Shown: positions 1,384 through 58,199 of the stretch, piece by piece | How the letters are laid out: each line of letters opens with the position of its first letter | How positions within the stretch are numbered: the stretch's first letter is position 1 | Assembly (NCBI GenBank): GCA_029228645.1 | Contig: JAPTHR010000003.1 | Span: 186,001-250,000 of the forward strand | Direction of reading: 5' to 3' | Source: Gammaproteobacteria bacterium Milos-ODIII6 | GTDB taxonomy: Bacteria; Pseudomonadota; Gammaproteobacteria; Chromatiales; Chromatiaceae | DNA length: 64,000 nt | Notes under the pieces: model-generated | Databases searched by the model: none | Told to the model about the DNA's origin: nothing | What the model saw: the letters and a program-made list of their open reading frames with translations, nothing else | Program-made: the position numbers and the translations under genes

Positions 1384-3087
<1,704 letters not shown>

Positions 3088-4958: not shown

Positions 4959-5303
4959 TCAGTAACCGCCTTTACGCGCCACGTAGGGCAGGCCGGCGAT
5001 GCGGTTGCCCTGCTTGGAGGGCGCACCCGGGAACAGCCTGTACAGGTCCTTGCTGCTCAGCTTCCTGCCCCAGACCTTGCTCATGCCCTTGTTGATCACC
5101 CGCTCCATCGGCTGCTCGTTCTCTTCGAAGTACTGCTCGCGCAGCCATTTGATTACGTCGAAGTGTTCCTGAGTCAGTTCGTCCATGGTGTCGTCGGCCG
5201 CTGCGAGGGCGCGCGCCACGTCTTCATTCCAGGCGTTCGGGTCGACCAGATTGCCGTTGTCGTCGAGTTCGATGCTGTTACCGTTGACTTCGATAGATGC
5301 CAT
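4959..5303 (-). CDS. DsrC/TusE-family protein without cysteines (RspA type)
   Basis: A 114-residue member of the DsrC/TusE/DsvC fold. It shares with DsrC a MASIEVNGNSIELDDNGNLV start, an HFDVIKWLREQYFEE helix region, and KDLYRLFPGAPSKQGNRIAG near the end. The C-terminal arm reads AGLPYVARKGGY instead of the DsrC pattern with two redox cysteines, and there is no cysteine anywhere. It therefore cannot carry persulfide or trisulfide sulfur. Such cysteine-free relatives have been called RspA and proposed to be regulatory. The ATG at 5303 has a GGAG ribosome site. It is the last gene of the leftward cluster, 145 bases after the Cas6-like gene. Confidence 0.85.
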   Translation of the reverse strand: MASIEVNGNSIELDDNGNLVDPNAWNEDVARALAAADDTMDELTQEHFDVIKWLREQYFEENEQPMERVINKGMSKVWGRKLSSKDLYRLFPGAPSKQGNRIAGLPYVARKGGY

Positions 5304-5448: not shown

Positions 5449-6147
5449 TTATTCATCTTCGACTTTCTTGACCGCGTCGATCCCCTTATGCGGGATAAAG
5501 ATGCCGCATCCGAACAGGCCATGTTCTCCGATCCCCTGTTGCTGCAGGCTGACGGCGTCCTCGGGACTGAGGTCGGCCAGCATGATGCTGCGCGTCTGGA
5601 TCGGTCCCTCGGGTGTCTGGACTTCCTGGGTGATGCCACACAGGGCCTTTTTGATCCGTATGCCACGCGCGCTCATTTCCTTCGCGATGCGCATCAGAAA
5701 CTGGTTTTCGTCCGCCTCTTCGCCCGGTTCGAGCACGACGTGGCGCGCGAAGATGGTGCCCTGCTTGGACAGGTTCTTGGGTTTGGCCTTGCCGATGGTG
5801 AGAGGATCGCCGTGAATATCCAGGGTCAGGCCATCCAGGGTGTTTTCGACCTGTTCGCGCAGCTCGAGCGGCACGCGGATGGTGAGTTTGGTGCGGCGCG
5901 AGGGGATGAGTTTCTGGCCGAGTTTGGGATCCGGTCGCTCCCAGCCGTTCTGCGAGCCGGCCAGATGGATGCTGTGCACCGCGCAGCGCTGATCTTCGGC
6001 CAGCACTGGGGCCGCGTCCTTGAGCGCATCCCCGAGAGCGTGTGCGTGATCCACTTCCAGCCGGCGGCAGTCGATGCTGAAGACGAGGTCGATCACATCG
6101 TCCGGGACCTTGAGTTCCTGCGATTTGTTGTCGTCTTCCCAAAACAT
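5449..6147 (-). CDS. Cas6/Cmx6-like RAMP-fold protein
   Basis: A 232-residue protein resembling Cas6 of the Cmx6 (type I-MYXAN) group. The N-terminal DLVFSIDCRRLEVDHAHAL matches the opening beta strand and the conserved Asp-His of that family. SRRTKLTIRVPLEL fits the middle, and near the C-terminus GIGEHGLFGCGIFIPHK contains the glycine-rich loop GhGxxxxxGhG of RAMP endoribonucleases. Cas6 enzymes normally cut CRISPR precursor RNA, but no cas gene or array is present here. Its neighbours are sulfur-metabolism genes, so an RNA-binding or RNA-cutting role outside CRISPR is an inference. ATG 6147 was chosen because GGTGA precedes it; TTG at 6159 is an alternative. Confidence 0.75.
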   Translation of the reverse strand: MFWEDDNKSQELKVPDDVIDLVFSIDCRRLEVDHAHALGDALKDAAPVLAEDQRCAVHSIHLAGSQNGWERPDPKLGQKLIPSRRTKLTIRVPLELREQVENTLDGLTLDIHGDPLTIGKAKPKNLSKQGTIFARHVVLEPGEEADENQFLMRIAKEMSARGIRIKKALCGITQEVQTPEGPIQTRSIMLADLSPEDAVSLQQQGIGEHGLFGCGIFIPHKGIDAVKKVEDE

Positions 6148-6254: not shown

Positions 6255-6965
6255 TCATTCCGGCAGTTGCGCCTGGATCGCATCGCGATCGAACCACCAC
6301 TGGTCTTGTACCAGTACGTCCACCACGTTGCGCAATCGCACCAGGAACTTGTCCGGGTCGTTGAGTTCGAGCTTCTCGATCCAGAAATCGAACTGCTCCT
6401 GGGTTTCCACGTCGCTGTGGCGACGGGCGACACTGCCGAGCAGTTGTTGCGAGAAGAACACCAGGCGTTCCTTCTCGGGGCCTTCCTCGGCGCGCACGTC
6501 CGCGACGAAACAGGCGGTGGCGGCGGCCACGGCGGCGCCATCCGACTCGTCCGGGGTGTCGCTGACCACGTGGCTGAGCAGGTGCACGCTGATCTCCGGA
6601 TCGATCGGGAAGGTCACCCCGATCCAGACGCCGTGCCCCAAGGCCACCAGGGAGTCGGGCTGGTCGCACTGGTAAGCGATGTCGCAGGCGTCGGCGGCAT
6701 TTTCCCAGTCGCGCAGCTCGGCAAAGATGCCGAAGGCCGTCATGACCAGCGGCCAGGCTTCCCCGCCGCGCTCGAGGATCTGCAGCGCGCGCGCCATCTC
6801 GAGTTGCAGTTGAGCCCTCTCGGACGGGTTGGCGTCCTCAGGCAGACGGTCCAGCTGCTGGCGTAGCTCCACCAGGCGGCCTTCGAGCTCCGCCTGCTGG
6901 CCCAGGTCCTTGCGCAGCGAGTCAGCGCCGGTGTCCTCGAGATGATTTGGGTCCAGGTAATCCAC
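6255..6965 (-). CDS. Unknown 236-residue helical protein of the dsr-divergent cluster
   Basis: I do not recognise a named family. The protein starts at a GTG (MDYLDPNHLED), preceded at good spacing by GAGGTAAG. Residues about 20-70 are charged and helix-rich (ELEGRLVELRQQLDRL, AQLQLEMARALQILERGG). They resemble a coiled coil leading into tetratricopeptide-like helices (FAELRDWENAADACDIAYQC). No signal peptide or membrane segment is evident, so it is probably cytoplasmic. It lies 12 bases after the 62-residue gene and before the Cas6-like gene. A scaffold or partner role for the cluster is a guess from position. Confidence 0.7.
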   Translation of the reverse strand: MDYLDPNHLEDTGADSLRKDLGQQAELEGRLVELRQQLDRLPEDANPSERAQLQLEMARALQILERGGEAWPLVMTAFGIFAELRDWENAADACDIAYQCDQPDSLVALGHGVWIGVTFPIDPEISVHLLSHVVSDTPDESDGAAVAAATACFVADVRAEEGPEKERLVFFSQQLLGSVARRHSDVETQEQFDFWIEKLELNDPDKFLVRLRNVVDVLVQDQWWFDRDAIQAQLPE

Positions 6966-6977
6966 TTTATTCTTACC

Positions 6978-7166
6978 TCAATAGCGGCTGCTGAAGGTAA
7001 CCTCCAGCTGATCTTCCCAGTCGTTCGGCGTATCCGGAAACTGGGGCTTTACGTCGAATCGGAGGTGCATCTCCCCGCGCCGGGCGAATTCCTTGATGAC
7101 GACCTTGAGGTCGTCGAAGCTCTTCATGTCCTGGTTGGCGATGAGCACCTGGCTGAGATACAACAT
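6978..7166 (-). CDS. Unknown 62-residue protein of the dsr-divergent cluster
   Basis: A small soluble protein (MLYLSQVLIANQDMKSFDD onward) with no recognised domain. It has a good ribosome site (GAGGAG about 9 bases before the ATG) and 12-base gaps on both sides, so it looks like a real co-translated gene. The sequence alternates hydrophobic strands (LRFDVKPQF, QLEVTFSSRY) with one helix (DDLKVVIKEFARRG), a pattern consistent with a small alpha-beta fold. No cysteines are present. Function is unknown. Confidence 0.7.
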   Translation of the reverse strand: MLYLSQVLIANQDMKSFDDLKVVIKEFARRGEMHLRFDVKPQFPDTPNDWEDQLEVTFSSRY

Positions 7167-7178
7167 GTTTCAATCTCC

Positions 7179-8057
7179 TCAGTAGATGACCGGGTCATGG
7201 TAACGCGCCCGGTAGTAGACGCGCTTCAGGGCCGGATCCGGTGAATCTGTGAATCCGCTGCGCCGATGCAGGATATTGTTGCTGAGTATCCCTTCTCCCG
7301 CCTGCAGCTTGAGTTCGAGGGCAAAAGGGTCCTCGTCGAGGATGTCCCGCAGCGCCGCCGCCGCTGCCAGCACCAGTGGGTCGTCTTTCCACTGGACATT
7401 GCGTTGCCGGGCGGAATAACGCATGTGCAGCCGGGTGCCTTCATTCGGGAACGTGAAGACCGGTCCGATGGTGGCCGGGCGAATCTCCTTTCCCCCTTCG
7501 AAGTTGGCCGGAATGGTAAAAGCTTCGTGGTCCATTAATGCCCTGATCCAGTCGGGGTTTTGATCCCGTAGCCGGATGTAGGCGATGTCGTGATCCAGCA
7601 GGCCGTTGATCCCGCCTTGCATCGCGGGCTGCTTGCAGTACAGCAGCATCCCCTGGATCTGCTGGTTCATGGGGTTGTAGTAGCCGTCCGTGTGCCAGCC
7701 AATCGGTTTGTCGGTATAGGGGATGTAGCGGTTATCCGTTGCGGTTTCCTTGACCGTGATTTCGGTCAGGCCGCTGTCCTCGGCGCAGAGGTTGGCGTCG
7801 ATGTCGCGTAGTCCGAACCTGGACGCGAGTGCCTGCAGGGCCGGCTGGGGATCCGCAGGCGGGTTGCGAAAACGGAAAAGGACGAAGTTTCGGGCATTGC
7901 AGGAGTCCGCGAGCGCGCGCGCCTCCGCTTCGGAGGCGCCTTCGGACGACTGGATCGCCACCACCGGGGGCTCCGCCTTCTGGCTGAGCTTGCGCTCCCG
8001 CCAGGCCCGGTAGGCCGCTTCGTTGTCGAGATCGAATGGGTTTCCCGAAGCCGTCAT
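7179..8057 (-). CDS. TauD/TfdA-family non-heme iron oxygenase
   Basis: A 292-residue cytoplasmic protein of the TauD/TfdA clan of Fe(II)/2-oxoglutarate dioxygenases. The metal-binding HxD appears in IGWHTDGYYNP, and the distal histidine is probably in NNILHRRSGF. A late arginine cluster (VYYRARYHDP) fits the 2-oxoglutarate site. TauD itself releases sulfite from taurine, but there is no taurine transporter here and the substrate cannot be read from the sequence. It is the first gene of the leftward five-gene unit, and its start codon faces dsrA across 388 bases. It may share regulation with the dsr genes. Confidence 0.82.
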   Translation of the reverse strand: MTASGNPFDLDNEAAYRAWRERKLSQKAEPPVVAIQSSEGASEAEARALADSCNARNFVLFRFRNPPADPQPALQALASRFGLRDIDANLCAEDSGLTEITVKETATDNRYIPYTDKPIGWHTDGYYNPMNQQIQGMLLYCKQPAMQGGINGLLDHDIAYIRLRDQNPDWIRALMDHEAFTIPANFEGGKEIRPATIGPVFTFPNEGTRLHMRYSARQRNVQWKDDPLVLAAAAALRDILDEDPFALELKLQAGEGILSNNILHRRSGFTDSPDPALKRVYYRARYHDPVIY

Positions 8058-8445
8058 TTGAATTGTCCTGAGTCAATTGCGTCCTTTTTTGATATTGACG
8101 GCCCGGCACATGAATGCCTACCATGCCCGCCGCATTTCGCCTTATATCTATAGTCTGATATTCTAAAAATCAAGTTTCACCTGATTTTTCATTTGCTTAG
8201 GCTGTTAGGTGTCGGTGAATTGGGCGCGTATATCCCATTAGGGATAGTCCGCGGGGTGATATGACTCTCCCCAAGGTAGAGTTATGTCTCCCCTTTCGCT
8301 CGGTTATATTAGCGTGCATTGATGGGGCCCCATGTGGGTGCCGTCACGGATTTATTCAGGTTTTCGAAAAGTCCACGCAGCCGCAGAGCCGGACCGTGTG
8401 GATGGTTTTAAAGTAATTAACCGATTAGTCAGGAGAGATAGCGAC
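8058..8445. promoter_or_regulatory. Divergent regulatory region between the TauD-like gene and dsrA
   Basis: No convincing gene lies in these 388 bases, which are more AT-rich than their surroundings. Visible elements: an inverted repeat AAAAATCA/TGATTTTT at 8165-8189; a 6-4-6 palindrome TATCCCATTAGGGATA at 8231-8246; a spaced direct repeat ATGACTCTCCCC (8261-8272) and ATGTCTCCCC (8284-8293); and a possible -10 box TATATT at 8305-8310 with no good -35. The dsrA ribosome site AGGAGA is near 8431. The repeats upstream of the -10 suggest an activator-dependent dsr promoter. Confidence 0.55.
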
Positions 8446-9696
8446 ATGGCGATCGATAAGTACCCCACACCTATGCTGGACCAACTCGAGGAAGGTCCGT
8501 GGCCGAGCTTCATTACCGGCATCAAGCGTCTGCGTGACCAGCACCCGGATCAGCGCATCAACGAGATGACCGCTTCCCTGCTGGGCCAGCTCGAGCACTC
8601 CTACGAGACCCGCAAAGGTTACTGGAAAGGCGGTACTGTCTCCGTCTATGGCTACGGCGGTGGCATCATCCCGCGTTTCTCCGAAGTTGGTAACGCCTTC
8701 CCGGAGTCCAGGGAATTCCACACCCTGCGTGTCCAGCCGCCGGCAGGCAACCACTACTCCACCGCCATGCTGCGTCAGCTGGCTGACAGCTGGGAAAAGC
8801 ACGGCTCGGGCCTGGTCACCTTCCACGGCCAGACCGGCAACATCATGTTCATCGGCACCAGCACTGATGGTACCCAGCACTTCTTCGACGAGATCAACGA
8901 CTACGGTTGGGACCTCGGCGGCGCGGGTCCCTGCGTACGTACCGCCATGTCCTGTGTCGGTGCGGCCCGTTGTGAGATGTCCTGTACCAACGAGCAGAAG
9001 GGGCATCGTCTGCTGGTGAACAACTTCACCGACGACGTGCACCGTCCGGCCCTGCCGTACAAGTTCAAGTTCAAGGTTTCCGGCTGCCCCAATGACTGCC
9101 AGAACGCCATCGAGCGTGCTGACTTCGCTGTGATCGGTACCTGGCGCGACGACATGAAAGTCAACCAGGAAGAGATCAAGGGCTACGTAGCCAAGAAGGG
9201 TCGCCAGTACATCATCGACAACGTGATTACCCGTTGCCCGACCAACGCGCTGTCGTTGAACGATGACGACACCCTGGCCGTGAACAACAGGGACTGCGTG
9301 CGCTGCATGCACTGCCTGAACGTCATGCCGAAGGCGCTGGGCGTCGGTGACGACAAGGGTGTGACCATCCTGATCGGTGGTAAGCGTACCCTCAAGATCG
9401 GTGACCTGATGGGTACCGTGGTCGTTCCGTTCAAGAAGCTGGAGAGCGAAGAGGACTGGGAGTCCATGGTCGAGCTGGCTGAAGAGATCATCGATTTCTG
9501 GGCCGAGAACGCGCTTGAGCACGAGCGTTGCGGTGAGATGATCGAGCGTATCGGTCTGGTCAACTTCCTCGAAGGTATCGACGTCGAAGTTGATCCGAAC
9601 ATGGTCAGCAATCCTCGCGAATGTTCCTACGTCCGCATGGATGGTTGGGATGACGAGGCAGTCAAGTGGTTTGACCGCCAGGCTGAAGCTTCTTAA
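8446..9696 (+). CDS. dsrA: Reverse-type dissimilatory sulfite reductase alpha subunit
   Basis: DsrA (416 residues) forms the alpha2beta2 siroheme enzyme with DsrB. In sulfur oxidisers it oxidises DsrC-bound sulfane sulfur towards sulfite in the cytoplasm. The siroheme/[4Fe-4S] cysteines are seen in CVGAARCEMSC and KVSGCPNDC. A ferredoxin-type insert follows with NRDCVRCMHCLNVMPKAL. The frame extends upstream to 8332, but the ATG at 8446 follows AGGAGA and gives the usual MAIDKYPTPMLDQL start. It is the first gene of the dsr locus. Codon use is more uniform than in neighbours, suggesting strong expression. Confidence 0.97.
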   Translation: MAIDKYPTPMLDQLEEGPWPSFITGIKRLRDQHPDQRINEMTASLLGQLEHSYETRKGYWKGGTVSVYGYGGGIIPRFSEVGNAFPESREFHTLRVQPPAGNHYSTAMLRQLADSWEKHGSGLVTFHGQTGNIMFIGTSTDGTQHFFDEINDYGWDLGGAGPCVRTAMSCVGAARCEMSCTNEQKGHRLLVNNFTDDVHRPALPYKFKFKVSGCPNDCQNAIERADFAVIGTWRDDMKVNQEEIKGYVAKKGRQYIIDNVITRCPTNALSLNDDDTLAVNNRDCVRCMHCLNVMPKALGVGDDKGVTILIGGKRTLKIGDLMGTVVVPFKKLESEEDWESMVELAEEIIDFWAENALEHERCGEMIERIGLVNFLEGIDVEVDPNMVSNPRECSYVRMDGWDDEAVKWFDRQAEAS

Positions 9697-9730
9697 GAGC
9701 TTAATCCAAACGTTTTGATGTTTTCCCCCG

Positions 9731-9753
9731 GGCGCGGGCCTCAGGCCCGCGCC
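9731..9753 (+). other. GC-rich hairpin between dsrA and dsrB
   Basis: GGCGCGGGCC, a TCA loop and GGCCCGCGCC form a perfect 10-bp stem without a following T tract. It is more likely an mRNA-stability or processing element than a terminator. It lies in the 94-base gap between two subunits that must be made in equal amounts. Confidence 0.7.
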
Positions 9754-9790
9754 GCAAAGGGGCACGCTTACCTGATTTCTGGAGGTAGTA

Positions 9791-10864
9791 ATGGCTAAAG
9801 AAATGCGCGAGCCGATCGAGACCGGTTGTCCTGATCCGTTCCAATACATGCACCCGAGCATGCGTCGTAACTTCGGCATGTGGGCTTACCACGAGCATCC
9901 CCGTCCCGGTGTGCTCCTGCACGTGGCCAAGAATGGCGACAAGCTTTGGACCATCAAGGCCGGTACCCAGCGTATCCTGGACCTGTACACGCTGCGCACC
10001 CTGTGCGACATCGCGGACAACTACTCCGACGGTTACATCCGTTTCACCATCCGTTCCAACCCGGAATTCTTCGTCACCGAAGAGTCCCGTGTCGAGCCGC
10101 TGATCGCCAAGCTGGAAGAAGCAGGCTTCATCGTCGGCGGAACCCAGAACTCCGTGACCACGCTGTCGCACACCCAGGGCTGGCTGCACTGCGACATCCC
10201 CGGCACCGATGCTTCCGGCGTCGTGAAGTCGATGATGGATGAGCTGATCGACGAGTTCCGTCAGGCCAACATGCCGAACCGTGTGCATATCACCACCTCC
10301 TGCTGCCAGATCAACTGCGGTGGCCAGGGTGATATCGCGATCAACGTGCAGCACACCAAGCCGCCCAAGATCAATCACGACCTGGTTGCCAACGTGTGTG
10401 AGCGTCCGTCGGTTGTTGCCCGTTGCCCGGTTGCGGCAATTCGTCCTGCCATGGTCAACGGCAAGCCTTCCCTGGAAGTCGACGAGAAGAAGTGCATCTG
10501 CTGTGGTGCCTGCTTCCCGCCTTGCCCGCCGATGCAGATCAACGACGCAGAGCACACCAAGCTGGCGATCTGGGTGGGTGGTAACCACTCCAACGCACGC
10601 GGCAAGCCGACCTTCCAGAAGCTGGTTGCTGCTGGCATCCCGAACAACCCGCCGCGCTGGCCGGAAGCGACCGCCATCGTCAAGCGCATCCTGGAGGCCT
10701 ATAAAGAAGGCGCCAAGGACTGGGAGCGTATCAACGAGTGGATCGAGCGTATCGGTTGGCCGCGCTTCTTCGAGCAGGTCGAGCTGCCGTTCACCAAGTA
10801 CCACATCGACAACTGGCGTGGTTCCCGTAAGAGCCTGAACTCTTCAACTTACATCCGCTTCTGA
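9791..10864 (+). CDS. dsrB: Reverse-type dissimilatory sulfite reductase beta subunit
   Basis: DsrB (357 residues) carries the catalytically active siroheme of DsrAB. Its siroheme-region cysteines lie in HITTSCCQINCGGQGDIA, and a ferredoxin insert is in KKCICCGACFPPCPPM. GGAGGT about 5 bases before the ATG supports the start. The N-terminal EPIETGCPDPFQYMHPSMRR and the C-terminus around NSSTYIRF are typical. It sits between dsrA and dsrE, as in A. vinosum. Confidence 0.97.
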   Translation: MAKEMREPIETGCPDPFQYMHPSMRRNFGMWAYHEHPRPGVLLHVAKNGDKLWTIKAGTQRILDLYTLRTLCDIADNYSDGYIRFTIRSNPEFFVTEESRVEPLIAKLEEAGFIVGGTQNSVTTLSHTQGWLHCDIPGTDASGVVKSMMDELIDEFRQANMPNRVHITTSCCQINCGGQGDIAINVQHTKPPKINHDLVANVCERPSVVARCPVAAIRPAMVNGKPSLEVDEKKCICCGACFPPCPPMQINDAEHTKLAIWVGGNHSNARGKPTFQKLVAAGIPNNPPRWPEATAIVKRILEAYKEGAKDWERINEWIERIGWPRFFEQVELPFTKYHIDNWRGSRKSLNSSTYIRF

Positions 10865-10892
10865 GCGGGCCGGTACAGACGAGGATTGCAGC

Positions 10893-11285
10893 ATGAAACT
10901 GGCAGTACAGGTAAACGAGGGTCCGTACCAGCATCAGGCCACGGACTCCGCGTACCACTTCACCAAGGCGGCCCTGGAAAAGGGGCATGAGGTCTTCCGC
11001 GTGTTTTTCTACCACGACGGGGTTTTGAACGGCACGCGTCTGACCACTCCGCCCCAGGATGACCGCAATATCGTCAACCGCTGGGTGGAACTGGCAGAGA
11101 AGTACGACCTCGATCTGGTCCTCTGCGTGGCTGCGGCCCAGCGCCGTGGCCTCGTGGATGACGGTGAGGCCGAGCGCAACGGCAAGGACGCGACCAACAT
11201 CGCGCCCAAGTTCCGGATCTCCGGTCTGGGGCAGTTGATCGAGGCGGCCATCCAAAGTGATCGCCTGGTTGTATTCGGTGATTGA
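10893..11285 (+). CDS. dsrE: Sulfurtransferase subunit DsrE
   Basis: DsrE (130 residues) is the sulfur-binding subunit of the DsrE2F2H2 hexamer, which passes persulfide sulfur to DsrC and is homologous to TusD. The essential cysteine is present as residue 78 (LVLCVAAAQRRG), the same number as in A. vinosum DsrE. The start MKLAVQVNEGPYQHQA is standard. dsrF starts 15 bases after the dsrE stop. In this organism DsrE supplies the only cysteine of DsrEFH, because DsrF and DsrH have none. Confidence 0.96.
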   Translation: MKLAVQVNEGPYQHQATDSAYHFTKAALEKGHEVFRVFFYHDGVLNGTRLTTPPQDDRNIVNRWVELAEKYDLDLVLCVAAAQRRGLVDDGEAERNGKDATNIAPKFRISGLGQLIEAAIQSDRLVVFGD

Positions 11286-11299
11286 GGGGGAGCTCTACG

Positions 11300-11707
11300 A
11301 TGTCTGAAATAAAGAAGTTCATGTATCTGAATCGGCGCGCACCCTACGGCACCATTTACGCCTGGGAGTCGCTCGAGGTGGTTCTGATCGGTGCGGCTTT
11401 CGACCAGGAAGTCAGCCTGATGTTTGTCGACGATGGGGTTTTTCAGTTGGTCAAAGGTAGTGATACCTCCGAGTCCGACATGAAGAATTTCCTGCCGACC
11501 TACCGCACCCTGGGTGACTACGGTGTGCGTCACATGTTTGTTGACCAGGCCTCCCTCGAGGCGCGCGGTCTGACCACCGATGACCTCATCCAGGTCGAGT
11601 GGGAGGACTGGGAGACTGAAGAGGAAGTGGACAACATTGTTGAAGCTGTGGATGCGGACAAGTTCAAAGAACTGATGGCCGAATCCGACGTTGTATTCAG
11701 CTTCTGA
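11300..11707 (+). CDS. dsrF: Sulfurtransferase complex subunit DsrF
   Basis: DsrF (135 residues), a structural TusC-like subunit of DsrEFH. It has the family core KKFMYLNRRAPYGTIYAWE, followed by FDQEVSLMFVDDGVFQL. The frame is open from 11282, but the ATG at 11300 follows a strong GAGGGGGAG and matches the family start. No cysteine is present. It sits 11 bases before dsrH. Confidence 0.94.
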   Translation: MSEIKKFMYLNRRAPYGTIYAWESLEVVLIGAAFDQEVSLMFVDDGVFQLVKGSDTSESDMKNFLPTYRTLGDYGVRHMFVDQASLEARGLTTDDLIQVEWEDWETEEEVDNIVEAVDADKFKELMAESDVVFSF

Positions 11708-11718
11708 GGGAAAGACAC

Positions 11719-12024
11719 ATGGCTGATCTGTATACCGTTAATAAGTCGCCCTTCGAAAAGAACTCGCTGGAGCAGGCTATCCGCTTCTCTGCCGATGGTG
11801 CCTCCATCCTCCTGATCGAGGACGGGGTCTACGGTGCCATGGCCGGTACCGCTGCCGAGGGCTTGGTCAAAGGCGCCTCGGGTCGAAAATTTTTCGCCCT
11901 GCGTTCCGACGTCAAGGCACGTGGCATTTCCGAAGATCGACTGATCGACGGAGTGGAACTGGTGGATTACGCGGGCTTCGTCGATCTGGTAGAGAGCACC
12001 GATAAAGTCCAGGCCTGGCTCTGA
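11719..12024 (+). CDS. dsrH: Sulfurtransferase complex subunit DsrH, lacking its usual cysteine
   Basis: DsrH (101 residues), the TusB-like third subunit of DsrEFH. MADLYTVNKSPFEKNSLEQA, ILLIEDGVYGAM and VDYAGFVDLVE identify it. In A. vinosum DsrH a cysteine at position 20 marks the putative active site. Here codon 20 is GCT (alanine), and the protein contains no cysteine. The loss is unambiguous in the reading frame, while the rest of the protein looks intact. It follows dsrF by 11 bases and precedes dsrC. Confidence 0.95.
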   Translation: MADLYTVNKSPFEKNSLEQAIRFSADGASILLIEDGVYGAMAGTAAEGLVKGASGRKFFALRSDVKARGISEDRLIDGVELVDYAGFVDLVESTDKVQAWL

Positions 12025-12063
12025 GTCCGGTCAAGATTTCAACACTGAACAGGAGATAGCAAA

Positions 12064-12396
12064 ATGCCTATCGAAGTAGATGGTAAGACCTTTGAAACCG
12101 ATGAAGAGGGCTACCTGGCCAACATCAATGACTGGGTGCCTGGCGTTGCCACTGTGATGGCCGCTGAAGATGAGCTGGATCTCAGCGATGAGCACTGGGA
12201 CATCATCAACTTTCTGCGCGATTACTACGAAGAGTACCAGATCGCTCCGGCTGTCCGCGTGCTGACCAAGGCTGTGGGTAAAAAGCTGGGCAAGGACAAG
12301 GGTAACTCCAAGTACCTTTATGGCCTGTTCCCTTATGGCCCGGGTAAGCAGGCATGCCGTTACGCCGGTCTGCCGAAGCCGACTGGCTGCGTCTAA
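12064..12396 (+). CDS. dsrC: Sulfur carrier protein DsrC
   Basis: DsrC (110 residues) carries sulfur between DsrEFH, DsrAB and the DsrMKJOP complex. Both redox cysteines of the flexible C-terminal arm are present, at residues 98 and 109, in KQACRYAGLPKPTGCV. The start MPIEVDGKTFETDEEGYL is typical. AGGAGA precedes the ATG. The gene is followed by a strong hairpin that may stabilise an abundant dsrC transcript. Compare the cysteine-free paralogue at 4959-5303. Confidence 0.97.
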   Translation: MPIEVDGKTFETDEEGYLANINDWVPGVATVMAAEDELDLSDEHWDIINFLRDYYEEYQIAPAVRVLTKAVGKKLGKDKGNSKYLYGLFPYGPGKQACRYAGLPKPTGCV

Positions 12397-12411
12397 GCGC
12401 CGTTGGTAATT

Positions 12412-12434
12412 CCGGGGAGCGAAAAGCTCCCCGG
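12412..12434 (+). other. Hairpin between dsrC and dsrM
   Basis: CCGGGGAGC, a GAAAA loop and GCTCCCCGG form a perfect 9-bp stem without a downstream T run. Its position directly after dsrC suggests mRNA stabilisation or partial attenuation, giving more DsrC than membrane subunits. Confidence 0.7.
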
Positions 12435-12467
12435 GTTGATAAACCGAATCAAGAGGTTTTCGGAAAC

Positions 12468-13205
12468 ATGTCGTTTCTGACGGTCACATTTGCCGCTCTT
12501 TACTACGCTGCCACAGTGCTTTTGGTGGTGGGGTTGGCACGTCGTATTCGTTTGTATTGGAAGACGCCTGCGCCGCTGAAGATCCCCACGACCCCAGCGC
12601 CCACCTCGACCGGCGGCGTAGTGATGCGCATGTTCCGGGAAGTGGTGTTTTTCGAAAGCCTTTTCAAATCGACCAAGTGGACCTGGCTGTTCGGCTGGCT
12701 GTTCCATCTGGGGCTGTTTGCCGTGTTGTTCCGTCACTTGCGGTACTTTCAGGAACCGGTCTGGGCTCCGGTGGTGTGGGTCAGCCCGCTGTTCAAGTAC
12801 CTCGCTTTTGCGATGATCATCGGATTGCTCGGCCTATTGGCGCGCCGGCTGTTCGTCGACCGGGTGCGCTACATTTCCGCCCCCTCTGATTTCCTCATGC
12901 TCTTCCTGCTTATCGGGATTGGAGCGACTGGTGCACTCACGACCTTCGTGACCCACACCGACGTGGTCGCGGTCAAGTCGTTCTTCCGGCACCTGATGAC
13001 GTTCAATTTCGACACCATGCCGAACGTGCCTACCGACCCATTGATGGTGGCTCACCTCGGCTTGGTCGTCGTGCTCATGATCGTCTTTCCGATCAGCAAG
13101 TTGCTGCACGCACCGGGCGTCTTCTTCAGCCCGACGCGTAACCAGGTGGACAACCCGCGCGAGCAACGACATATCGCCGATTGGGCGCGCAAGCTGGAAC
13201 AATAA
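12468..13205 (+). CDS. dsrM: DsrM, membrane cytochrome b subunit
   Basis: DsrM (245 residues) is the NarI-like di-heme b subunit of DsrMKJOP and exchanges electrons with the quinone pool. It starts MSFLTVTFAALYYAATVLLV with a transmembrane helix and shows four more hydrophobic segments. Candidate heme-ligand histidines are in WLFHLGLFAVLFRHLRYF and in later helices. The frame is open upstream inside dsrC, but the ATG at 12468 gives the family length. It sits 21 bases before its partner gene dsrK. Confidence 0.95.
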   Translation: MSFLTVTFAALYYAATVLLVVGLARRIRLYWKTPAPLKIPTTPAPTSTGGVVMRMFREVVFFESLFKSTKWTWLFGWLFHLGLFAVLFRHLRYFQEPVWAPVVWVSPLFKYLAFAMIIGLLGLLARRLFVDRVRYISAPSDFLMLFLLIGIGATGALTTFVTHTDVVAVKSFFRHLMTFNFDTMPNVPTDPLMVAHLGLVVVLMIVFPISKLLHAPGVFFSPTRNQVDNPREQRHIADWARKLEQ

Positions 13206-13226
13206 TCCGGGACAAGGTTAGCTGAC

Positions 13227-14759
13227 ATGGCAAAAGCAGATTTTGAAATTCCGGAACTGAAGGAATACCCCGAGATTCCGCCGGTTCAGCCCGGCGCGAC
13301 GGCCGGCCTGAAATCCTTCGTGGCCAAGCCCGAAATGCAGGATGCGTTGGGCTTCCCCGGCGAGTTGGTGGATGGCTGGCAGGAAAAAGCCATCGAACAC
13401 ATGGGGGAACTCCTTGGGAAGTACCGCTCACTGCAGGTGTTCCTGGATTCCTGCGTGAAGTGCGGTGCCTGTACCGACAAGTGTCACTACTATCTTGGCA
13501 CTTCCGACCCCAAGAACATGCCTGTCGCGCGCCAGGACCTGTTGCGTAAGGTCTACCGTCGCTACTTCACTTTTGCCGGGAAGTATTTCCCGAAGCTGGT
13601 GGGCGCAACCGATCTGAACAAGGAAGTCCTGGACGACTGGTACAGCTATTTCCACCAGTGCTCGCAGTGTCGCCGTTGCTCGGTCTTCTGTCCTTACGGG
13701 ATCGATACCGCAGAAATTTCGATGGCTGCGCGCGAGATCATGGACCGTATCGGTCTTGGGCAGAAGTACTGCAACGAGATCATCGGTAAGGTTTACAAGA
13801 TCGGTAACAACCTGGGTCTTCCGGGGCCGGCGCTCGAGGATACCCTCGAGGGTCTCGAGGAAGACGTGTTCGACGAAACCGGGGTCGAAGTCAAGTACCC
13901 GCTCGACAAGAAAGGGGCAGACGTCCTGCTGGTCACGCCGTCCGCTGACTTCTTCGCCGAGCCGCACGTGGACGGCCTGATCGGCTACGGCAAGGTGTTT
14001 CACGAAGCCGGGATTGACTGGACGCTCAGTACCACGGCCTCCGAAGCAGCGAACTTCGGCATGTTTATCGGCTCCTACGAGAACATGCGCAAGATTTCGA
14101 TGCGCATCCGCGAGGCGGCGCTGGAACTTGGCGTCAAGCGCATCATCTTCGGCGAGTGCGGGCATGCCTGGCGCGTGGCCTACAGTTTCCTGAACACGCT
14201 GGCTGGACCCTGGGACTTCCTGGACAAGAATTACCCGATGCCGCAGCACATTCTGGAATTCACCTGGGGTGAGATTCAGAAGGGCACGCTGAACATCGAC
14301 AAATCGCTGAACGACGACATGGTCGTGACCTTCCACGATTCCTGCAACGTCGCGCGCGCGAGCCGCATGGGTGACGAGCCGGGTGGGCAGTTCACCATTC
14401 CGCGCAATGTGATTAAGGCCGTTTGTAACAACTTCGTGGACATGGATCCCGACACCACCCACGAGAAGACGTTCTGTTGCGGTGGTGGGGGTGGCCTGCT
14501 GACCGATGACCTCATGGAAATCCGGGTCAAGGGCGCAAAACCCCGAATGGAAGCGCTGCGCAACGTGATCGAGGAACATGGCGTGACCAACATGGCGGCG
14601 ATCTGCGCGATCTGCAAGGCGCAGTTCACCAAGGTCCTGCCGTATTACGGTCTCGGCATGGACATGATCGTCAGCGTTCACCAGTTGGTTTCCAACGCCG
14701 TGATTCTGACCGGTCAGCAGACCGAGGAAGATGAATCGAAAGAGGACGACGCGGCCTGA
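13227..14759 (+). CDS. dsrK: DsrK, HdrD-like iron-sulfur subunit
   Basis: DsrK (510 residues) is the cytoplasmic catalytic subunit thought to act on the DsrC disulfide or trisulfide. Two [4Fe-4S] motifs occur near the N-terminal third (CVKCGACTDKCHYY and CSQCRRCSVFCPYG). The C-terminal part has HdrD-type CCG features (FHDSCNVARAS and TFCCGGGGGLL). It contains no membrane helix and is anchored by DsrM. The acidic tail EEDESKEDDAA is a minor local feature. Confidence 0.96.
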   Translation: MAKADFEIPELKEYPEIPPVQPGATAGLKSFVAKPEMQDALGFPGELVDGWQEKAIEHMGELLGKYRSLQVFLDSCVKCGACTDKCHYYLGTSDPKNMPVARQDLLRKVYRRYFTFAGKYFPKLVGATDLNKEVLDDWYSYFHQCSQCRRCSVFCPYGIDTAEISMAAREIMDRIGLGQKYCNEIIGKVYKIGNNLGLPGPALEDTLEGLEEDVFDETGVEVKYPLDKKGADVLLVTPSADFFAEPHVDGLIGYGKVFHEAGIDWTLSTTASEAANFGMFIGSYENMRKISMRIREAALELGVKRIIFGECGHAWRVAYSFLNTLAGPWDFLDKNYPMPQHILEFTWGEIQKGTLNIDKSLNDDMVVTFHDSCNVARASRMGDEPGGQFTIPRNVIKAVCNNFVDMDPDTTHEKTFCCGGGGGLLTDDLMEIRVKGAKPRMEALRNVIEEHGVTNMAAICAICKAQFTKVLPYYGLGMDMIVSVHQLVSNAVILTGQQTEEDESKEDDAA

Positions 14760-29222: not shown

Positions 29223-29297
29223 ATTCTGCAGCACCCCAAATCCTTTCCCGAACCGGGATAGGGGTGCAGCGGGCAGTCGGAACAGGCGCTTCCTCAA

Positions 29298-29560
29298 TCC
29301 CCTCCCCACCTGTGAGGAGGGTCAGGTTGAGCAATCGCAACGGGCACTTCTTTTGTCCCCTCCCCACTTGTGGGGAGGGTTAGGGAGGGGAGGAAACAGC
29401 CAGCCGCCTGAACCCCACCCCCATCCCAGCCTTCCCCCTCCAAGAGGGGGAAGGGGCGAAGTGGCTGTCCCCTCCCCACTTGTGGGGAGGGTTAGGGTGG
29501 GCAGTCGCAACAGCTTCTTCGATTGTCCCCTCCCCACTTGTGGGGAGGGTTAGGGTGGGG
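29298..29560. repeat. First block of GC-rich palindromic repeats
   Basis: Four copies of a unit with consensus TCCCCTCCCCACTTGTGGGG followed by AGGGTTAGGG lie at 29298-29330 (degenerate), 29356-29390, 29468-29501 and 29526-29560. A divergent stem (CTTCCCCCTCC/GAGGGGGAAGG) is at 29430-29454. Units 1-2 and 3-4 are in 58-bp phase, separated by a conserved linker like GCAATCGCAAC. The fourth unit overlaps the 3' end of the DUF559 gene. Confidence 0.9.
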
Positions 29561-29891
29561 AGAGGTGTCGCAAAATATCCGCCAGTACCGCCTCCGTTTC
29601 CTGCAGCACCTGGTCGTTCCAGTAGCGCAGGGCCCGGAAGCCGGCCTGGCTGATGTAACGGTCCCTGCTGCGATCGTATGCGGCCCGTTCCGCATGTTGT
29701 CCGCCATCGAGTTCCACGACCAGCCGCTGTTCTACGCAGGCAAAGTCCGTGATGTAGGGGCCGATGGGATACTGTCGGCGGAACCGGTGGCCCTTCAATT
29801 GGCGCCTGCGCAGATGCCGCCACAAATGGCGTTCTGCATCGGTGGCGTTGTTGCGCAGCTTTCTGGCGCGTTGGGTGCGGGGGTGGGGCAT
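29550..29891 (-). CDS. DUF559 (Vsr-like) endonuclease-domain protein
   Basis: A 113-residue protein matching DUF559, a very-short-patch-repair-like nuclease fold of unknown substrate. Diagnostic segments are RKLRNNATDAERHLWRHLR, HRFRRQYPIGPYITDFAC and LVVELDGGQH, the last two holding likely metal-binding acids. ATG at 29891 (MPHPRTQRARK) was preferred to the upstream 29948. The gene lies between two blocks of the GC-rich palindrome, and its last residues and stop codon are encoded by a repeat unit. This arrangement suggests a functional or mobile link between nuclease and repeat. Confidence 0.88.
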   Translation of the reverse strand: MPHPRTQRARKLRNNATDAERHLWRHLRRRQLKGHRFRRQYPIGPYITDFACVEQRLVVELDGGQHAERAAYDRSRDRYISQAGFRALRYWNDQVLQETEAVLADILRHLSPP

Positions 29892-29928
29892 GATGATCTT
29901 CCTTGATCGGTGCTGGTTGGTATTTTTC

Positions 29929-30183
29929 CCCCTCCCAGCCTCCCCCACAAGTGGGGGAGGAGAAGGACTTGCAGTCCCATCTCCACCTGTAATGGGGTTA
30001 GGGAGGGCAATCGCAACAGCGCCTTCGTTTGTCCCCTCCCCACCTTGTGGGGAGGGTTAGGGTGGGCAATCGCAACGGGCACTTCTTTTGTCCCCTCCCC
30101 ACTTGTGGGGAGGGTTAGGGAGGGCAATCGCAACAGCTTCTTCGTTTGTCCCCTCCCCACTTGTGGGGAGGGTTAGGGAGGGG
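29929..30183. repeat. Second block of GC-rich palindromic repeats
   Basis: A variant stem at 29929-29967 (CCTCCCCC...GGGGGAGG), a degenerate unit at 29975-30007, then three nearly identical units at 30032-30066, 30091-30124 and 30150-30183. The last three starts are exactly 59 bases apart. The linkers are almost the same (GCAATCGCAAC, then CTTCTTTTG or CTTCGTTTG), so this is a tandem array and not a CRISPR. The final unit overlaps the mtaB 3' end. Confidence 0.9.
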
Positions 30184-57800: not shown

Positions 57801-57930
57801 GCTGTCTCCCTGTGGAATGCCCGCCGCATTCCGGTGATGTCTGGCGGGCATCCGGGCGAGCGAAGCCATGGCACAGGGAGGGCTGCCGGGGAGTCACTCA
57901 CCAGCCGCCCACCGCGCTTGGTTTGATGAA

Positions 57931-58110
57931 TGCTCGGGCCGGTATCCGGACTCACACGTTGCAGCTCAAGCTGCAGACGCCCACGCCTTCCCAAGCATTT
58001 GCTCAGTGGCTCTTGTGATACGTCTGCACGTGTTTACCGTTGCGGGGGCAGTGCCGGGATCTCACCGGCTTCCCGTTTAACCCGGCGAAAACAAGTTTCT
58101 CCAGGCACCG
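57931..58110 (-). ncRNA. Cobalamin (B12) riboswitch
   Basis: On the minus strand, conserved blocks of the cobalamin aptamer appear in order: CGGTGCC at the 5' end, AACGGGAAGCCGGTGAGA, TCCCGGCACTGCCCCCGCAA, GCCACTG, TGGGAAGGC, and finally GAGTCCGGATACCGGCC. This is the classic class I arrangement. It lies about 130 bases upstream of btuB, so it should turn down the btuB transcript when cobalamin is plentiful. Confidence 0.95.
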
Positions 58111-58199
58111 CGAGCAGGGCGCGCAGGATAAGGATTGCTGGATCGGGGGTCAACCGACAGGCGGATCAGGGGCACTGGGCCCCGGCCTGCCGAAGAGGG

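Follow-up and report, generated by a model that had tools for sequence, protein, structure and literature searches.

Results

A Cas6-like gene lies in an operon divergent from dsrA

The stretch of DNA analysed here (the window, 64,000 nt) carries a gene for a Cas6-like protein, hereafter Cas6L, which begins at an ATG at position 6147 with the conserved start MFWED. The gene belongs to an operon whose conserved order is TauD / U62 / TPR-like U236 / Cas6L / cysteine-less DsrC2, divergent from dsrA (Table 1). Its neighbours are those named in the original prediction, a TauD-like gene (PF02668), two genes without a Pfam family and a DsrC-like gene (PF04358), all running opposite to dsrA. The names given to the seven further dsr genes are presumed from their family and serve as labels.

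Table 1. Features of the Cas6L locus and other elements of the window.
Feature	Position	Strand	Basis
Cas6L (Cas6-like protein), 232 aa	5449..6147	minus	PF09559 match, AlphaFold model, PDB match, invariant residues
DsrC2, DsrC-family protein without C-terminal cysteines, tail RKGGY	4959..5303	minus	PF04358, 105 bits; start from alignment
U236, all-helical TPR-like protein, optional partner	6255..6965	minus	Predicted fold; pLDDT 94.2
U62, 62-aa orphan family, MLxLSEILIQ...DVKPPFxDTPExWEDRLEAAF	6978..7166	minus	47-row alignment
TauD-like Fe(II)/2-oxoglutarate dioxygenase, first operon gene here	7179..8057	minus	PF02668, 72.4 bits
Palindrome TATCCC-ATTA-GGGATA (TATCCCATTAGGGATA), probable dsrA-promoter operator, not a Cas6L site	8231..8246		Copy location and spacing
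dsrA, divergent from the Cas6L operon	8446..9696	plus	TIGR02064, 5.8e-193 in the window's genome; start (MAIDKYPTPML) presumed from ORF
dsrB, dsrE, dsrF, dsrH, dsrC, dsrM, dsrK	9791..14759	plus	ORFs; order conserved in relatives
Strong hairpin between dsrA and dsrB, candidate substrate, unsupported	9730..9755	plus	Folding
Strong hairpin after dsrC, candidate substrate, unsupported	12412..12434	plus	Folding
5_ureB_sRNA, antisense to the urease gene adjoining the Cas6L operon	1533..1819	minus	Rfam match, 114.6 bits
Seven copies of a ~58-nt repeat with the hairpin CCCTCCCCACTTGTGGGGAGGG or a near variant, in two clusters; REP-like	29273..30183		
Cobalamin riboswitch	57921..58127	minus	Rfam RF00174, 100.5 bits

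Cas6L is a Cas6 family protein

Cas6L is a real member of the Cas6 family. It matched PF09559 (Cas6) with 200.4 bits (E = 3.7e-59; cut-off 26.7) and the PADLOC Cas6 models at 3.8e-56. The NCBIfam Cas6/Cmx6 model TIGR02807 gave 84.2-84.3 bits for the window's protein, below its equivalog cut-off of 98.85, and was matched by all 76 Cas6L orthologues at E < 0.001, a threshold apart from that cut-off. A search of the PDB with the single sequence returned chain B of 8fcj, the Cas6 of a type I-B CRISPR transposon, as the sole match (E = 3.7e-6), and a profile of the 76 orthologues found it at 1e-25. The same chain was the closest fold to the AlphaFold model of Cas6L (pLDDT 91.9, pTM 0.87), with Z = 25.0 and an rmsd of 2.0 over 199 aligned residues, followed by other Cas6 proteins from Z = 16.9 downward. 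The model has the two ferredoxin/RRM domains and the C-terminal glycine-rich loop of Cas6, with G207, G213 and G215 invariant.

The original prediction had recognised a Cas6/Cmx6-like protein in this gene from a GIGEHGLFGCG loop and a DLVF...DHAHAL stretch, and had named the lack of a RAMP or Cas6 match as the outcome that would speak against it. Profile search and structure prediction gave a strong Cas6 match instead, and both motifs are present, with H34 and the three glycines within them invariant in the 76 orthologues.

Cas6L accompanies dsrA and is independent of cas1

We compared the occurrence of PF09559 matches, dsrA and cas1 in an even sample of 369 Gammaproteobacteria, four of which are also in a second sample taken from the order. 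Both Cas6 and dsrA were found in 111 of the class genomes, Cas6 only in 7, dsrA only in 8 and neither in 243 (phi 0.907, Fisher p = 7e-75, statistics that ignore relatedness). For cas1 in the same genomes the corresponding counts were 50 with both, 68 with Cas6 only, 85 with cas1 only and 166 with neither (phi 0.08, p = 0.13). The order sample had PF09559 in 188 of 210 genomes and 55 of 61 genera, with no more than one match in 175 of these genomes; with real dsrA defined as E < 1e-30, a limit set by hand, 180 genomes had both genes, 16 neither, 6 dsrA only and 8 Cas6 only. The survey of dsr linkage with and without CRISPR that had been called for thus ties the gene to dsrA, and not to cas1, in Gammaproteobacteria. 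This near-strict rule, that a gammaproteobacterial dsrA goes with Cas6L, is the most surprising part of the analysis. A phylum sample gave a match in 1 of 219 genomes, the window's own, and the 21 rows listed for it all belong to the same class, so that it tells little about other classes.

Most exceptions to the rule are ends of contigs. We opened 16 of them, namely 9 of the 14 genomes with dsrA alone in the two samples and all 7 class genomes with Cas6L alone, and a contig end explained 13. Among the dsrA-only genomes, the operon is cut by a contig end before Cas6L in G066, G118, G093 and G332, and the contig ends just upstream of dsrA in G319, G415 and G279; G031 and G561 have no such explanation. 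Six of the seven Cas6L-only class genomes have a contig end at the expected place of dsrA (G525 shows a dsrA fragment), leaving G506 without a contig-end explanation. The one Cas6L-only genome of the order that was opened, of eight (G023, locus L038), has a contig ending beyond U62.

The two genes are usually neighbours as well. In the unselected set of 118 class genomes with Cas6L, dsrA lies within 10 kb in 82, is absent in 7, and is not within that distance in 29, an uncounted share of which is due to contig breaks. The surrounding genes were followed in loci that were chosen by hand (on the rank of the match, the length of the contig and the coverage of genera or families) and labelled by comparison with the window's proteins: of 35 such loci from the order, 32 have a divergent dsrA within 8 kb, 34 U62, 33 U236, 27 DsrC2 and 15 TauD, and of 40 from elsewhere in the class, 34 have the divergent dsrA within 8 kb, 33 U62, 33 TauD, 31 DsrC2 and 15 U236. 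Even three loci from genomes of 1.0-1.1 Mb (L133, L135, L136) keep TauD, U62, Cas6L and DsrC2 beside dsr.

The f110 family departs from this arrangement. The distance between Cas6L and dsrA is 42 kb in G318 and 518 kb in G532, both single-contig genomes, and action in cis is therefore not needed. U62 occupies a third place in these two genomes and a third contig in G434, with an intact 60-aa frame in each. In both G318 and G532, Cas6L (loci L137 and L139) is divergent from rnc-era-recO-like genes, and dsrA is diverged (E about 1e-147); the rnc product is an RNase III by Pfam in L139 and by the likeness of the ORFs in L137. At two of the seven listed loci where Cas6L stands alone, we noted a sulfur transporter (PF04143, L258:7740-9002) as neighbour in one and a TauE/SafE sulfite exporter (PF01925, L260:7941-8726) close by in the other.

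The physical linkage in 82 of 118 genomes is what would be expected if Cas6L were a functionless gene carried along with the dsr locus. However, Cas6L is kept where it is truly unlinked, in the single-contig genomes G318 and G532, and it is under visible constraint, with residues invariant over a median identity of about 45%. We find such passive carriage scarcely credible.

Type I-MYXAN cas genes and CRISPR-like arrays are absent around Cas6L

The window's genome (G000; 3.53 Mb in 25 contigs, rated 100% complete) has Cas6L as its single PF09559 match, no match to Cas1 and only sub-cut-off matches to Cas3. No CRISPR-like array was detected in the window, where the sole repeat is the 58-nt hairpin repeat at 29.3-30.2 kb. 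The same holds for relatives: in 75 Cas6L neighbourhoods, mostly of 16 kb each, we found neither a CRISPR-like array nor the cas3, cas8, cas7, cas5 and cas4-cas1 genes of type I-MYXAN (queries from four loci). A tandem repeat in L033 was set aside as an array candidate, as its 57-nt unit has no spacers. Searches for Cas6L relatives in phages or viral contigs found none, and the 3 plasmid matches (6 with a CRISPR-type query) were all distant cyanobacterial CRISPR Cas6 genes.

True CRISPR Cas6 genes are found in some of the same genomes. Five genomes of the order (L064-L068) contain a second PF09559 copy, 24-30% identical to Cas6L, and each of these lies beside cas3, cas8, cas7 and cas5 in a type I-MYXAN operon. 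Three of the five are also beside cas4-cas1, and three are by repeat arrays of 10, 9 and 2 copies with a spacing of 70-73 nt. Cas6L and a true CRISPR Cas6 therefore coexist. The original prediction had stated that no CRISPR lies near the gene and would have yielded to orthologues that always sit within a full CRISPR-Cas locus; the absence nearby is secure, and type I-MYXAN cas genes accompany all five second copies and none of the 75 Cas6L loci.

Cas6L might still be an ordinary crRNA-processing enzyme that serves CRISPR arrays at other places in the genome. Its family membership would allow this, and most type III systems apparently rely on a Cas6 supplied in trans, according to the accessible part of PMC12669027. 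But 68 of the 118 Cas6L genomes of the class have no cas1 match, the window's among them, Cas6L is retained next to dsr in the 1.0-1.1 Mb genomes, and the five order genomes with an opened second copy possess a separate Cas6 for type I-MYXAN. We consider this role very unlikely.

Cas6L forms a separate clade with altered basic residues

The 76-row alignment of Cas6L is invariant at W3, H34, P47, G68, W69, R85, R91, Q202, G207, G213 and G215, and W3, H34, G68, W69, R85, R91, G207, G213 and G215 are identical in all 80 named loci, many of which are from the same genomes as the 76 rows. For comparison we used nine CRISPR Cas6 rows, comprising the five second copies of the same order and four cyanobacterial type I-MYXAN Cas6 proteins whose genes are annotated beside cas3, cas8 or cmx8, cas7 and cas5. 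The helix-1 histidine of Cas6 is present as H34 in 76/76 Cas6L and 9/9 CRISPR rows, with N at the aligned place of 8fcj_B; H34 is presumably the catalytic histidine, by analogy with the Cas6 literature. Features conserved specifically in Cas6L are the MxWxE start, the NGWxRP loop, an SRRT/SKRT motif and several new arginines and lysines. The NGWxRP stretch (67-72), peculiar to Cas6L, overlaps residues 65-68, the sole segment of at least three residues with pLDDT < 50 in the model.

In the tree of the 76 Cas6L and nine CRISPR rows, one branch separates the two sets with support of 100/99, in an unrooted tree whose bootstrap had not quite settled. In this tree Cas6L forms a clade of its own, apart from CRISPR Cas6. 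Cas6 families are spread through CRISPR systems, and since the root is not fixed by the tree, it is from this spread that we infer a direction from CRISPR to Cas6L.

The two sets also differ in charge, and Cas6L lacks the basic, crRNA-binding character of Cas6. The median pI is 6.1 for Cas6L (range 4.79-8.91) and 9.78 for CRISPR Cas6 (9.3-10.74); for the net charge of the core alone the gap is smaller, with medians of +1 and +8 and overlapping ranges. Positions 173, 177, 179 and 211, basic in all nine CRISPR rows, are basic in 5, 39, 1 and 37% of the 76 Cas6L rows, respectively, and a basic residue is also lost at position 181. Conversely, a basic residue stands at positions 71, 84, 96, 124 and 166 in 83-100% of the Cas6L rows, compared with none or one of the nine CRISPR rows. 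From the invariant H34 together with the lost CRISPR-type basic residues, we read Cas6L as a Cas6 that has been domesticated and altered in its chemistry or its substrate, and the turnover of basic positions with the shift in pI suggests that the RNA surface of Cas6L was either rebuilt or given up. Because residues basic in all nine CRISPR relatives have been lost, it is doubtful that Cas6L carries out the canonical Cas6 cleavage of stem-loops.

Proposed partner proteins U62, U236 and DsrC2

An alignment of 47 U62 rows is invariant at L2, S5, P41, P47, W50, E55 and F58, and no relative was found in Pfam or the PDB at a convincing score. No U62 match was obtained in four tested genomes without real dsrA, nor in four dsr genomes with Cas6L (G306, G385, G270, G228). 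U236 matched no Pfam family; in structure comparison it came closest to TPR proteins (Z up to 13.7, rmsd 3.5, 168 residues aligned; best Foldseek E = 0.037), a helical-repeat likeness at the level of fold only. DsrC2 is assigned to the TusE/DsrC family by profile match. We aligned 33 DsrC2 rows with the window's own DsrC, and all 33 end in RKGGY, without the C-terminal cysteine arm of sulfur-carrying DsrC.

Pairwise distances of Cas6L correlate with those of U62 (r = 0.62), DsrM (0.59), DsrA (0.49), TauD (0.40) and DsrC2 (0.40). U62 is thus the best tracker of Cas6L among families with more than 1,000 pairs, which is a hint only, because shared ancestry alone yields such r values.

These partners bear on two alternatives to an RNA-acting Cas6L. 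In the first, the role would be purely at the protein level: RNA binding would have been lost, and the double-RRM fold would act on the Dsr machinery as a scaffold, chaperone or gate. It might, for instance, hold DsrC2, and the arm of DsrC2, lacking cysteines, could occupy DsrAB while accepting no sulfur. The acidic pI, the loss of the CRISPR-type basic residues, operon partners consisting of a DsrC homologue and a TPR-like protein, and the constant RKGGY tail would all agree with this. A mere scaffold, however, would not obviously need H34, the glycine-rich loop and Q202, invariant in 76 rows, and several new basic positions are conserved. We regard a protein-only role as possible, though on the doubtful side.

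In the second, Cas6L and DsrC2 would guide sulfur, or an oxidation step, to tRNA or another structured RNA and so join the Dsr flow to RNA thiolation. The membership of DsrC2 in the TusE/DsrC family, the Fe/2-oxoglutarate oxygenase often found in the operon, and the annotation of DsrEFH genes as TusBCD-type tRNA 2-thiouridine proteins (table in the accessible portion of PMC10892978) are in its favour. But DsrC2 has no C-terminal cysteine for carrying sulfur, TauD is variable (15 of the 35 order loci) and its distances track those of Cas6L poorly (r = 0.40). A sulfur relay to RNA seems improbable to us.

Candidate targets in the dsr region

The original prediction had Cas6L acting on dsr transcripts, with their hairpins as possible substrates. 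We folded the intergenic regions dsrA-dsrB, dsrB-dsrE, dsrH-dsrC, dsrC-dsrM and Cas6L-dsrC2 and, in 117 loci, the 70 nt that follow dsrC. Most genomes have strong hairpins in the dsrA-dsrB gap and downstream of dsrC, and a G-rich 5' arm is frequent among the latter. The hairpins have no sequence in common, some loci have none, and no strong dsr hairpin was found in the three loci from 1.0-1.1 Mb genomes (L133, L135, L136), where Cas6L is kept. The tie to dsr stands. The hairpins do not hold up as a common substrate; they may be targets locally. Searches for Rfam families in the dsr region returned none at gathering scores. Separately, the hairpins after dsrC and between dsrA and dsrB may help to set a separate level of dsrC; in the accessible text of PMC11267869, dsrC is nearly constant while dsrAB drop about 22-fold.

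The intergenic region between the two operons contains a palindrome, which is the only exact copy in the genome and the only copy in the window at up to one mismatch. Each arm of the pattern TATCCCN4GGGATA occurs in 86 of 113 non-redundant divergent regions, about 16 being expected from shuffles, and across the class 122 of 134 loci show the pattern upstream of dsrA with 10 or more of its 12 bases. In loci whose dsrA and Cas6L are apart or separated by contig ends, a palindrome with at least 11 of 12 bases lies by dsrA in 6 of 14 (L251, L257, L259, L263, L269 and L273; those without it are L252, the single locus L254/L272, L256, L261, L265, L267, L271 and L274). The corresponding count upstream of Cas6L is 0 of 14, the one match at L255 being downstream of DsrC2. 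Its spacing to promoter-like elements is fixed in the order and in other families, with a C-rich block at +33 to +52 and a -10-like box at +72 (8304-8311 in the window), and its distance to the dsrA start is variable. A count of exact copies in 22 genomes gave one in 10, two in 2 and none in 10, compared with 2 for a reversed control pattern. Of the 14 exact copies, 11 lie by dsrA, the exceptions being the only copy in G150 and one each in G289 and G243.

We had at first read this palindrome as a leader hairpin, a reading that was dropped. Among one-change variants read in the dsrA sense, 21 of 37 keep a G-U pair, 8 mirror changes break it and 8 break it either way, a weak count because related species are counted several times. 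Since the copies go with dsrA and not Cas6L, and their spacing to the -10-like box is fixed, the palindrome is probably a DNA operator at the dsrA promoter, a candidate site for a dsr regulator. The regulation of dsr is reportedly the subject of Grimm et al. (2010).

Discussion

Co-occurrence, synteny, phylogeny and fold show that Cas6L belongs to the I-B/MYXAN branch of Cas6, stands outside CRISPR immunity and is a fixed accessory of the gammaproteobacterial Dsr module. We propose that it acts on RNA together with partner proteins, a reading we find plausible while holding it somewhat short of probable. An RNA role is our best guess, since Cas6L keeps the fold of Cas6 with its glycine-rich loop, and its helix-1 histidine is invariant. 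As these have been retained while basic residues were lost and other invariant residues gained, Cas6L may recognise a new RNA together with its partners, U62 first, whose distances follow those of Cas6L best and which is kept apart from it in f110, then DsrC2 and, where present, the TPR-like U236. A complex of Cas6L, U62 and DsrC2 could then tune dsr expression or sulfur relay to the sulfur supply. Several observations count against this. The search of the dsr region gave no substrate for Cas6L, the dsr hairpins being unlike in sequence and the palindrome being best read as an operator, and the acidic pI and basic losses of Cas6L oppose ordinary stem-loop binding. Cas6L can also lie far from dsrA, as in f110. 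Nor do DsrC2 and U62 always stand beside Cas6L: DsrC2 does so in 27 of 35 order loci and 31 of 40 class loci, and four dsr genomes with Cas6L gave no U62 match.

A bolder form of the RNA-acting proposal would place the domestication of one Cas protein early in the Dsr lineage of Gammaproteobacteria. This protein would form an RNA-acting subunit with U62 and the cysteine-less DsrC and be a standing requirement for reverse-Dsr sulfur oxidation. We offer this tentatively, with more doubt than confidence. If it is true, a CRISPR-derived ribonuclease fold provides RNA-level control, or RNA-assisted assembly, of core energy metabolism.

Purple sulfur bacteria and many sulfur symbionts have Dsr-based sulfur oxidation as one of their main routes to energy. 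The presence of Cas6L with dsr in nearly every sampled gammaproteobacterial genome, down to those of 1.0 Mb, makes it likely that it matters for the pathway. Cas6L has been hidden because it carries a CRISPR label under the current family model. In the accessible open-licence literature we found no mention of a Cas6 linked with the dsr locus, as in the available portions of PMC10952691, PMC7540712, PMC5728499, PMC5944118, PMC8889020 and PMC8866350, and neither Cas6 nor CRISPR occurs in the main text, as far as accessible, of a dsr synteny study of 2,070 genomes (PMC10504309). A part of the CRISPR immune system thus seems to be a now standard yet unstudied component of sulfur metabolism. Allochromatium vinosum is a cultured purple sulfur bacterium in which dsr mutants have been made and whose dsr cluster is Alvin_1251 to 1265, according to the accessible part of PMC3368242.

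Among known systems, Cas6L is closest to the Cas6 of type I-MYXAN / I-B (Cmx6, TIGR02807; PF09559), with which it shares the profile family, the fold, the helix-1 histidine and the glycine-rich loop. It differs from these proteins in having no type I-MYXAN cas operon or array in 75 neighbourhoods, in its separate clade with its own MxWxE and NGWxRP motifs, and in a median pI of 6.1 instead of 9.78, with basic residues lost. Its nearest solved structure, by sequence and by fold, is PDB 8fcj chain B, a Cas6 from a type I-B CRISPR-associated transposon, which is 22% identical, is a subunit of an RNA-guided complex and has N aligned with H34. Within the DsrC/TusE family, DsrC2 resembles other cysteine-less members: the Solemya velum symbiont has DsrC homologues in which both cysteines are missing, and the accessible part of the paper that notes them (PMC4287430) makes no mention of a link to a Cas6-like gene. 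Finally, exapted CRISPR derivatives, namely transposon-borne type I, type IV and a STAND-linked I-E module, are likewise CRISPR parts outside adaptive immunity, as described in the accessible parts of PMC8730458 and PMC6452270. Those derivatives keep several cas genes, whereas Cas6L is a lone cas gene tied to a metabolic pathway, and a clear case of a single cas gene outside immunity in a metabolic locus.
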